Assembly: GCF_002556545.1 (NCBI RefSeq)
Contig: NZ_CP022685.1
Span: 5,372,001-5,436,000 of the forward strand
DNA from: Streptomyces formicae
GTDB taxonomy: Bacteria; Actinomycetota; Actinomycetes; Streptomycetales; Streptomycetaceae
DNA length: 64,000 bases
Direction: 5' to 3'
Each line of letters starts with the position of its first letter. Position 1 is the first letter of the stretch. The notes under the pieces are model-generated. The model saw nothing but the letters and a program-made list of their open reading frames with translations. It did not search any database and was not told the DNA's origin. The translations under genes were made by a program, and so were the position numbers. Below are positions 22,200-26,788 of the stretch, piece by piece.

Positions 22200-22260
22200 T
22201 ACGCCTTAGATTCTACACATAGACTCGCGGTATCGCTGAATAATGAAAGGCATCGCACCT

Positions 22261-22716
22261 ATGGACGCCGTGGACAGGCAGCTCATCCAGGCCCTGCGGG
22301 AGAACGGCAGGGCCTCGTACGCCGAACTCGGGCGGCTCGTGGGCCTCTCAGGGCCCAGCGTCACGGACCGGATCAACCGCCTCGAAGCGGCCGGTGTCAT
22401 CACCGGCTACCGCGCGACCGTCGACTCCGCGTCGCTCGGTCTCGGTGTCATCGCCCTCATCGGCATCTCGCTCTCCGACGCCGCCGACCACGAGGACGTG
22501 GCGCGGCGCCTGAAGGACCTGCACGAGATCGAGGACTGCTGGTTCATCGCGGGCGACGACTCGTACATGCTCAAGGTCAGGGCCAGCGACGTGGACGGCC
22601 TGGAGAAGACGATCCGCAGACTCAGCGGCACCCGGGGGGTCTCCCGCACGCGCACCACGATCGTGCTCTCGACCAAGTGGGAGAACCGCGTCGGGGAGCT
22701 TCCCGAAGAGGTGTAG
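22261..22716 (+). CDS. Lrp/AsnC family transcriptional regulator
   Basis: A 151-residue feast/famine regulator. The helix-turn-helix (DRQLIQALRENGRASYAELGRLVGLSGPSVTDRINRLEAAG, first 50 residues) is followed by a RAM ligand-binding domain (SLGLGVIALIGISL ... CWFIAGDDSYMLKVRASDVDGLEKTI). ATG 22261 is preceded by GAAAGG at proper spacing; ATG 22243 would add six residues (MKGIAP) and lacks a ribosome binding site. It sits between ubiX and mqnE, so it may link amino-acid status to menaquinone synthesis, an inference from position only. Confidence 0.88.
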   Translation: MDAVDRQLIQALRENGRASYAELGRLVGLSGPSVTDRINRLEAAGVITGYRATVDSASLGLGVIALIGISLSDAADHEDVARRLKDLHEIEDCWFIAGDDSYMLKVRASDVDGLEKTIRRLSGTRGVSRTRTTIVLSTKWENRVGELPEEV

Positions 22717-25070: not shown

Positions 25071-25113
25071 GGGACCCCGGTCCTGGAGCGCATCGCTCCG
25101 GGGCCGGGGTTCC
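25071..25113 (+). terminator. terminator hairpin after the DUF4229 gene
   Basis: GGGACCCCGGTCCTGGAGCG (from 25071) pairs with the complement ending at 25113 (CGCTCCGGGGCCGGGGTTCC) around CAT, an imperfect 20-bp stem with a few G-U or mismatched positions. It closes the GNAT/DUF4229 segment and separates it from the leader-peptide region. Confidence 0.7.
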
Positions 25114-25189
25114 GTGCGTCGCGGGGCAGTTGGGGCCGCCGGGAAACGGATCAAGCGGGGCCCGTCGCTCCGCTTACCTCAAACAAGAC

Positions 25190-25206
25190 CTTTGATGTTC
25201 TCAAAG
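25190..25206 (+). promoter_or_regulatory. dyad upstream of the Cys-rich leader ORF
   Basis: CTTTGA (25190-25195) and TCAAAG (25201-25206) flank a five-base centre TGTTC. The stretch 25180-25228 is AT-rich for this genome and directly precedes the leader ORF at 25229, so it probably contains the promoter and an operator. Confidence 0.45.
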
Positions 25207-25228
25207 TACAAGTGTTAACGTGTTCGAC

Positions 25229-25330
25229 ATGAAGACAGCAGCAGCGCACCGCAACGCCATGAGCGTCCCGCTCGTGGCGCGCCTGCATGTCGACCTCTGC
25301 CGCTGCATGTCCGCGGCCTGTCACGTCTGA
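25229..25330 (+). CDS. Cys-rich putative leader peptide (attenuation uORF)
   Basis: A 33-codon ORF ending ...VARLHVDLCRCMSAACHV. The HVDLCRC...C signature, with two Cys codons flanking Arg and a further Cys near the end, is that of the actinobacterial 'putative leader peptide' ORFs found before sulfur and other transport genes. Cysteine-rich uORFs of this sort act as cysteine-responsive attenuators in mycobacteria. ATG 25229 has no ribosome binding site, so leaderless translation from a start at or near the ATG is possible; in-frame ATG 25259 is an alternative. The symporter starts 93 bases after its stop, with stem-forming sequence (GCGAC ... GTCGC) between. Confidence 0.75.
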   Translation: MKTAAAHRNAMSVPLVARLHVDLCRCMSAACHV

Positions 25331-25423
25331 TCGTGATCCCCGCTGCAGCGACGCCGCTGACCCTTCGCGGTCGCCGCTCCCGTACGTCCCCAACCCCCTG
25401 ACTTTCCTCACCGGAGTGTGTCC

Positions 25424-26788
25424 GTGTCCGCGAATTCCGCGACGCCCGCCGACAAGGCAGGCGACACCGAGAAGCCCGAGTCCGGCTTCCGGATACCCAA
25501 GTTCCTCAAGATCCCCTTCTGGGCGCAGATCCTCGGCGGCCTCGTCCTGGGTGTCCTGCTCGGCTGGATCGCCCGTGACCAGGACGTCGACTGGCTCGTC
25601 ACCACCCTCTCCAAGGTCGGCGACACCTTCATCGGGCTCCTGAAGCTGGCGGTCGCCCCGCTCGTCTTCTTCGCGATCCTGGTGTCGATCACCAACCTGC
25701 GGAAGGTCAACAACGCCGCGCGCCTGGCCACCCGCACCCTGCTCTGGTTCATGATCACGTCGCTGATCGCGGTGGCCATCGGCCTCACCATCGGTCTGAT
25801 CACCAACCCGGGCTCCGGCACCGGCCTCACCCCGAAGGACGGCAAGGCCCCCGACCACGCGGGCTCCTGGATCGACTTCCTGACCGGGATCATCCCGACG
25901 GACGTCATCACGCCCTTCACCGAGCTCAACGTCCTGCAGATCGTCTTCATGGCCGCCGTCGCCGGCATCGCCGTACTGAAGATCGGTGACAAGGCCCAGC
26001 CGATCCTGGAGCTGAGCGAGTCCGTCCTCGCCCTCCTCCAGAAGGCCCTGTGGTGGGTCATCAAGCTCTCCCCGATCGGCACCATCGGCCTCATCGGCTT
26101 CGCCATCGCGGACTACGGCTGGAACCTCATCAGCAAGTACGCGACGTTCACCGCGGACATCTACATCGGCTGCGCCCTGGTGATGTTCGGCGTCTACCCG
26201 CTGCTGCTCGCGTTCGTCGCCAAGGTCAACCCGCTCCAGTTCTTCAAGGGCGCCTGGCCCGCGATCCAGCTGGCCTTCGTCTCGCGCTCCTCGGTCGGCA
26301 CCATGCCGATCACCCAGAAGGTCACCGAGCGCCTCGGCGTGCCGAAGGAGTACACGTCCTTCGCGGTGCCCTTCGGCGCCACGACGAAGATGGACGGCTG
26401 CGCCGCGATCTACCCGTCGATCGCCGCGATCTTCGTCGCGCAGATCTTCGACGTGAACCTGGGCATCAAGGAGTACCTGCTCATCGCGTTCGTCTCGGTC
26501 GTCGGCTCCGCCGCCACCGCCGGTCTCACCGGCGCCACGGTCATGCTGACGCTGACCCTGTCGACGCTCGGCCTGCCGATGGAAGGCGTGGGCCTCCTGC
26601 TCGCCATCGACCCGGTCCTCGACATGATGCGCACCGCCACCAACGTGGCCGGGCAGGCGCTGGTCCCGGTGATCGTCGCGGCCCGCGAGAAGATCCTCGA
26701 CCACACGGCGTACGAGAGCGCGTCGGCGTCCCCGCTGGACGACTTCGACGAGTCGCCCTCGTCGCGTGCGGTGGCTGCGGCCGCCTGA
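25424..26788 (+). CDS. dicarboxylate/amino acid:cation symporter (DAACS family)
   Basis: A 454-residue secondary transporter of the glutamate/aspartate/dicarboxylate:cation symporter fold, with about eight helices and two re-entrant loops. AFVSRSSVGTMPITQKV is the HP1 serine-rich loop, PFGATTKMDGCAAIYPSIAAIFVAQ the TM7 NMDGT-equivalent (TKMDG), and GLTGATVMLTLTLSTLGLPMEGVGLLLAIDPVLDMMRTATNVAGQ the HP2-TM8 region. GTG 25424 has CGGAG seven bases upstream, better spaced than GTG 25418. Substrate is unproven: the Cys-rich leader upstream argues for cystine or another sulfur-containing anion rather than C4-dicarboxylates. Confidence 0.88.
   Translation: MSANSATPADKAGDTEKPESGFRIPKFLKIPFWAQILGGLVLGVLLGWIARDQDVDWLVTTLSKVGDTFIGLLKLAVAPLVFFAILVSITNLRKVNNAARLATRTLLWFMITSLIAVAIGLTIGLITNPGSGTGLTPKDGKAPDHAGSWIDFLTGIIPTDVITPFTELNVLQIVFMAAVAGIAVLKIGDKAQPILELSESVLALLQKALWWVIKLSPIGTIGLIGFAIADYGWNLISKYATFTADIYIGCALVMFGVYPLLLAFVAKVNPLQFFKGAWPAIQLAFVSRSSVGTMPITQKVTERLGVPKEYTSFAVPFGATTKMDGCAAIYPSIAAIFVAQIFDVNLGIKEYLLIAFVSVVGSAATAGLTGATVMLTLTLSTLGLPMEGVGLLLAIDPVLDMMRTATNVAGQALVPVIVAAREKILDHTAYESASASPLDDFDESPSSRAVAAAA

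Follow-up and report, generated by a model that had tools for sequence, protein, structure and literature searches.

The window, by which we mean the whole stretch of 64,000 nucleotides that was analysed, covers positions 5,372,001-5,436,000 of a 9.61 Mb genome consisting of a single contig. On its forward strand a short open reading frame (ORF) with cysteine codons near its end precedes a gene encoding a symporter of the DAACS (SDF) family (Table 1). A preceding sequence-only reading had described a 33-codon ORF with Cys codons 93 bases ahead of the symporter, and this is borne out. The spacing, counted from the leader stop codon, follows from taking the GTG at 25424, seven nt past the GGAG Shine-Dalgarno (SD) sequence, as the likely start of the symporter; the GTG at 25418, two codons earlier, which is given in the mechanical ORF list, is the poorer choice because it lies too close to the SD. 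The C-terminal end of the leader peptide reads RLHVDLCRCMSAACHV, and its Cys codons are TGC at 25298-25300 and 25304-25306 and TGT at 25319-25321. Stem-forming sequence downstream of the leader is present, as had been noted. The dyad reported ahead of the ORF is also there, but it belongs to the promoter/operator region and not to an attenuator, since its last base lies 23 nt before the leader start.

Table 1. Coordinates of the features at the leader-symporter locus (positions in the window)
Feature	Position	Strand	Description
Operator-like repeat	25178-25206	+	Half-site CTCAAAC (25178-25184, degenerate in the window) and dyad CTTTGATGTTCTCAAAG (25190-25206)
-10-like element TAACGT	25216-25221	+	Spacing to the leader ATG 7 nt; transcript predicted to be leaderless
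Cys leader peptide ORF	25229-25330	+	33 codons encoding MKTAAAHRNAMSVPLVARLHVDLCRCMSAACHV, then stop
Element 2, Cys-Arg-Cys-Met codons	25298-25309	+	TGCCGCTGCATG; can pair with element 3
Element 3, TGCAGCG	25344-25350	+	Pairs with CGCTGCA of element 2, 7 bp
Possible 3:4 GC-rich hairpin	25347-25378	+	AGCGACGCCGC ... GCGGTCGCCGCT; by eye; no U-run after it
C-rich, G-poor spacer	25357-25406	+	C 0.50, G 0.18; possible Rho-loading stretch
DAACS (SDF family) symporter	25424-26788	+	GTG start, SD GGAG at 25413-25416; KMDGCAAIYP in TM7

Linkage of leader and symporter, for which a scan of other genomes had been proposed, was found in 180 of 184 Streptomyces loci by a protein pattern that sets no condition on the promoter or on codon 4. 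These loci comprise 104, including that of the window, and the best 80 named relatives of the symporter, all of them from Streptomyces; some genomes are present twice, and 164 of the leader regions are distinct. Filtering on the promoter yields 178 leaders (175 strict and three relaxed) and loses L180 and L233, and two loci with a degenerate or altered core, L216 and L151, are scored as present. The leader is absent at L155, L178, L179 and L268. At these four loci the symporter directly follows the promoter region, CAAAG/CTTTG repeats included, as in natural leader losses. Outside Streptomyces, 85 genomes carry an orthologue, and among the 67 orthologues read (18 were left unread) a leader of the HVDLxR...C type was detected in 42, namely in 39 of 60 and in three of a further seven (L080, L081, L082), while the reverse-strand scan of the same 60 served as a control and returned none. 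The leader is thus conserved before orthologues, the opposite of what had been named as evidence against the reading, yet it was not found in 25 of the 67 orthologues read outside the genus; none was seen in the rows read from the families coded f2, f5, f7, f8, f111, f114 and f115, nor in some of f3 and f99. No such ORF occurs in the 2.3 kb read around either of the two DctA-like paralogues in this genome. Concerning the distribution of the symporter itself, an orthologue at >=70% identity occurs in 102 of 150 sampled Streptomyces genomes (two of them partial). The other 48 have none at this level, and a few of the assemblies are incomplete. Across the class, 112 of 394 genomes carry an orthologue at E <= 1e-100, including the 85 outside Streptomyces.

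Cys occupies tail position 4 in 178 of the 180 Streptomyces leaders (Arg or Gly in L119 and L140), position 6 in 145 and position 11 in 178, the codon at position 11 being TGT in 175. TGT is otherwise rare, as the symporter ORFs of the 80 named loci contain 153 TGC and a single TGT; its retention at position 11 therefore points to a constraint at the nucleotide level, for which tRNA decoding or RNA pairing are candidate reasons. Across the 164 distinct leader regions (tail codons -5 to 11), mean entropy at codon positions 1, 2 and 3 was 0.27, 0.25 and 0.53; restricted to codons that the selection pattern of the 161-member set does not cover, it was 0.34, 0.33 and 0.44, so that the coding signature of the leader is clear but modest. 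The sets used for promoter, pairing and folding analyses were chosen by a DNA pattern requiring Cys or Arg at tail position 4, which drops 14 of the 184 loci (L072, L123, L140, L151, L155, L163, L178, L179, L209, L212, L216, L222, L230 and L268).

Upstream of the leader, the logo of 157 promoters aligned at the leader start displays consensus half-sites CAAAG at -49, CTTTGA at -39 and CTCAAAG at -29. In 146 of the 161 regions the TAACGT element lies 7 nt ahead of the start, in 11 it lies 6 nt ahead, and in four it was not found. Since the leader start was picked as an in-frame ATG or GTG with TANNNT upstream, the T, the A and the final T of this element are partly given by construction; the selection does not account for its C (82%), its G (96%) or the GTG that precedes it. 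The leader transcript is predicted from this arrangement to be leaderless, beginning at or beside the leader ATG. Searching the genome with CTTTGANNNNCTCAAAG gave 45 strand-matches at up to two mismatches compared to 34 for the reversed control pattern. The exact dyad produced three strand-matches at two places in 9.6 Mb, one before the leader and two, on both strands, before cds1, where it forms the perfect palindrome CTTTGAGCACCTCAAAG (L281:3483-3499, G000:C1:1061982-1061998). Inexact matches are near chance, apart from the reverse strand of the leader's own site. The cds1 ORF passes the Cds1 L-cysteine desulfhydrase model with 606.7 bits (cut-off 600). Of 61 genomes searched, 56 had a cds1 match, and among the Streptomyces loci of the best 30 a relaxed dyad (one substitution, spacer 4-5) lies within 400 nt upstream of cds1 in 25, compared to 0.3% of mononucleotide shuffles. 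We therefore regard the dyad as operator-like and as common to an import and a degradation gene. NdgR was rejected as its regulator, as its published motif, [GT]T[CT]CAC...GGAC (PMC4340878), differs. A gene for an Lrp/AsnC-type regulator is located on the same strand about 2.5 kb upstream (window positions 22243-22716).

Elements 2 and 3 can form up to 13 consecutive pairs, including G-U, in relatives. In 33 of 160 sequences, complementarity of the Cys-Arg-Cys-Met codons (TGCCGCTG[CT]ATG) to the spacer element CATGCAGCGGCG extends over 12 consecutive pairs, two of them G-U, and shorter matches occur in many of the others. Best complementarity averages 23.2, compared to 21.5 when leaders and spacers are swapped among orthologues and 17.9 with shuffled spacers. 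When 145 of the 160 spacers (75-180 nt) were aligned with MAFFT, 86% of the cells of the helix paired versus 18-67% in eight slid registers, the highest of which is a period-3 slip, and 16 extra pair types were counted versus 5-12. Double-change cells numbered 22 versus 2-22, and covariation is thus not above these controls. The helix is absent or displaced in several clades; by eye, where Cys 6 is replaced by Arg, the spacer element ACAGCAGCGG can pair with later Cys codons. The 3:4 hairpin is not supported as a conserved feature. Its 3' end, CGCTCC (25375-25380), can pair with the SD instead, which the minimum free energy (MFE) fold favours, and pairing of the window SD with CGCTCC reaches 0.99 versus 0.53 for shuffled sequence, with or without a modelled ribosome. 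Among relatives the SD is predicted to be paired in most sequences, but its masking by the spacer does not exceed that in dinucleotide shuffles (0.55 versus 0.60, the real value being higher in 74 of 155). With the Cys codons masked, modelled SD accessibility changes by a mean of +0.03, rising by >0.1 in 32 of 157 and falling by >0.1 in 12; the stall model on 60 sequences drawn at random gives a mean of +0.025, with nine up and four down. An RNAalifold consensus of leader and spacer (40 of 127 sequences) contains weak local helices only. The stretch separating leader and gene holds no intrinsic terminator, the sole match (25648-25662) lying inside the gene, and Rfam returned nothing at the gathering threshold over the window and nothing up to E=1 over 25100-25500.

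The symporter matches PF00375 with 350 bits and carries the binding-site motifs SRSSVGT, KMDGCAAIYP and DPVLDMMRTATNVAGQ, the residue roles of which are known from GltPh. An extra TM7 residue together with GCA.(I/L)YP was found only in nine rows of its clade and in E. coli TcyP among 20 rows compared, a comparison in which TcyP is represented by this one sequence. In TM8 the symporter reads LDMMR where DctA, like the genome's two paralogues, reads MSE(A/C)R; the D and the R are kept, the R corresponding to GltPh R397. This pattern of motifs in TM7 and TM8 argues for an amino acid over a C4-dicarboxylate as substrate. Pairwise scores are 149 bits with TcyP (31% identity), 166 with GltP and 163 with DctA. 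In a 40-row tree the symporter group forms its own deep clade (100/100), and the one TcyP included is placed on a long branch that is unreliable. Scores are far under the DctA and GltP cut-offs, and assignment to DctA was rejected on 217.9 bits against a cut-off of 513 (NF002461) and on the TM7 and TM8 motifs. YdjN/TcyP, named cystine/sulfocysteine symporter in RefSeq, has been shown by experiment to be a DAACS cystine importer of E. coli (PMC4383340). Because the DAACS family includes cystine importers, the remark of the sequence-only reading that a leader of this class before a dicarboxylate-type symporter is unusual was a misreading: the protein has the TM7 signature of TcyP and lacks the DctA motif in TM8.

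Short ORFs of the kind described by the NCBIfam model NF042934 (cis_reg_atten, putative leader peptide) lie before sulfur genes. The leader of the window scores 24.2 bits against this model, and 23.1 in the genome search, with a cut-off of 27 that seven of ten orthologous leaders chosen from different clades do pass; since the group straddles the cut-off, we leave the window's own peptide outside the family. Against NF042936, the model of the Cys-rich leader Ms4527A, it scores 17.9 bits (cut-off 45). A search of this genome, in which 150 of 336 first-look candidates were scored with NF042934, detected at least seven leaders above the cut-off and two just below it, including that of the window. 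In 14 control genomes no match exceeded the cut-off, though weaker ones occurred in ten. Scanning this genome with a sequence pattern instead gave 25 sites, few of which were leaders. All of the eight other leaders listed (>=24 bits) have sulfur genes downstream: a sulfatase, a ThiS/CysO-like gene with a CysM-like PLP enzyme, two SsuA-type sulfonate systems, a sulfite/nitrite reductase followed by PAPS reductase (CysH), a rhodanese, a flavin reductase and a cysteine dioxygenase, where names finer than the Pfam or NCBIfam matches are our own reading. The leader therefore marks a sulfur regulon, and by extension the symporter would have a link to sulfur as well. The leader ahead of the cysteine dioxygenase, a cysteine-degrading enzyme (PF05995), is VHMDLVRYAGCVCHPSC (L110:3462-4004, minus strand). 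A further leader, that of S. lividans metNIQ, is called methionine-dependent in Table 4 of PMC8079986; ending in CMCRRMCAF, it contains three Cys codons and could instead be a Cys leader, in which case the importer may carry cystine. Among the matches listed from the open-licence PMC literature no paper deals with the leader-symporter pair.

By comparison of genomes, we can thus document the leader, its Cys codons, the linkage to the symporter, the promoter-like element at a fixed distance and, in most relatives, the complementarity of Cys codons and spacer; the leaderless start, the stalling, the direction of the response and the substrate are what we infer. We consider it probable that the leader mediates attenuation by sensing charged Cys-tRNA, the symporter being made under cysteine shortage and likely importing cystine or cysteine. 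The transcript would start at or next to the leader ATG. With charged Cys-tRNA, the ribosome would pass the Cys codons and symporter expression would stay low, whereas with uncharged Cys-tRNA it would stall there and the symporter would be expressed, so that a sulfur amino acid, with cystine or cysteine as the likeliest, would be taken up by the cell. A ribosome stalled at the Cys codons would open the helices that these form with the spacer, and the output step would be either release of the ribosome-binding site (RBS) or a block of Rho-dependent termination in the C-rich spacer, which we hold to be about equally likely. A DNA-binding regulator common to cds1 would probably act on the promoter as a second layer. 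Against a simple response to shortage speak the operator common to a cysteine-degrading enzyme and the Cys leader before cysteine dioxygenase, which fits poorly with a rule of being on when cysteine is short. The cysteine-responsive attenuation proposed from the sequence gains from the comparison, given that the Cys codons extend far beyond the genus, that the leader is near curated models and that its kin precede sulfur genes.

That the leader works through Rho-dependent transcription termination in the spacer instead of translation initiation falls a little short of an even chance in our view. The last 50 nt before the SD have on average 0.48 C and 0.20 G in 157 relatives, and this average is more C-skewed than 98% of window stretches (2.0% of the 50-nt stretches are as skewed, and 1.4% as skewed as the spacer of the window itself) and than 99% of 178 SD-preceded ORF controls, although these controls are non-independent and C-richness by itself is weak evidence. 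The lack of a U-run terminator and SD masking at chance level fit with Rho, which was suggested in 2005 for terminator-lacking Cys leaders of Mycobacterium, P. acnes and B. longum (PMC1262725); the mycobacterial precedent speaks for the other side, since translation attenuation is given as the mode of regulation of the M. smegmatis cysteine genes (PMC13236596, citing Canestrari 2020). The operator at the promoter could also be what regulates, with the leader minor or vestigial. Repeats in the 157 aligned promoters, the relaxed dyad before cds1 and the four loci that have lost the leader and keep the promoter repeats directly before the symporter agree with this, but a vestige would decay, and the retention of the leader in all but four of the 184 loci, with near-invariant first and last Cys codons, makes it unlikely. 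Its small size is all that would make the leader a chance ORF, an explanation refuted by its conservation and by the empty reverse-strand control and to which we assign practically no probability.

The same Cys attenuator might alternatively govern a symporter for cysteate, sulfocysteine or glutamate/aspartate, any of which would be useful under sulfur shortage. We regard this as possible, though less likely than not: the GltP score is as good as that of TcyP, the R equivalent to GltPh R397 is kept as in carriers of acidic amino acids, the best PDB match is an aspartate transporter (266 bits) and the RefSeq name of TcyP includes sulfocysteine, but the TM7 insertion with GCA.(I/L)YP is shared with TcyP alone among the rows compared. 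Returning to cystine or cysteine as substrate, we put forward tentatively, at somewhat less than even probability, the wider proposal that DAACS symporters of the KMDGCA type constitute a hitherto unrecognised actinobacterial family of cystine/cysteine importers that is controlled at two levels, by a Cys leader read by the ribosome and by a regulator acting at a CTTTGA-N4-CTCAAAG operator shared with the cysteine-degrading Cds1.

The leader-symporter pair is real, conserved and functionally coherent, and it belongs to a known actinobacterial kind of Cys leader. The surprise lies in the target, a candidate actinobacterial importer of cyst(e)ine that an operator-like site connects with cysteine breakdown. 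Leader and operator jointly pick out one conserved symporter family as candidate importer; if this is true, an import gene joins the actinobacterial Cys-leader regulon and is linked to cysteine breakdown. According to a 2025 study of a Streptomyces that degrades feathers, the genome of that strain has no annotated cystine/cysteine transporter (PMC12763843).

Compared with known systems, the symporter resembles DctA in matching NF002461, and differs from it in LDMMR instead of MSEAR in TM8 and in the TM7 insertion, which DctA is missing. With TcyP/YdjN it shares the PF00375 superfamily by alignment, the TM7 motif with its one-residue insertion and the D and R of TM8, but it has K-M-D where TcyP has G-Q-N before the glycine, and the low identity and separate deep clade set the two apart. 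The leader has the R.HVDL.R..SA.C core of NF042934 leaders and their position before sulfur genes in this genome; in contrast to the genome's other leaders, it has more tail Cys codons and is followed by a DAACS symporter. For the Cys-rich leaders of mycobacteria (Ms4527A), Canestrari 2020 reportedly describes release of the RBS by stalling. For the leader of the window RBS sequestration is not demonstrable; with the mycobacterial leaders it has in common a start predicted to be leaderless, Cys codons close to the end of the ORF and complementarity of these codons to downstream RNA.
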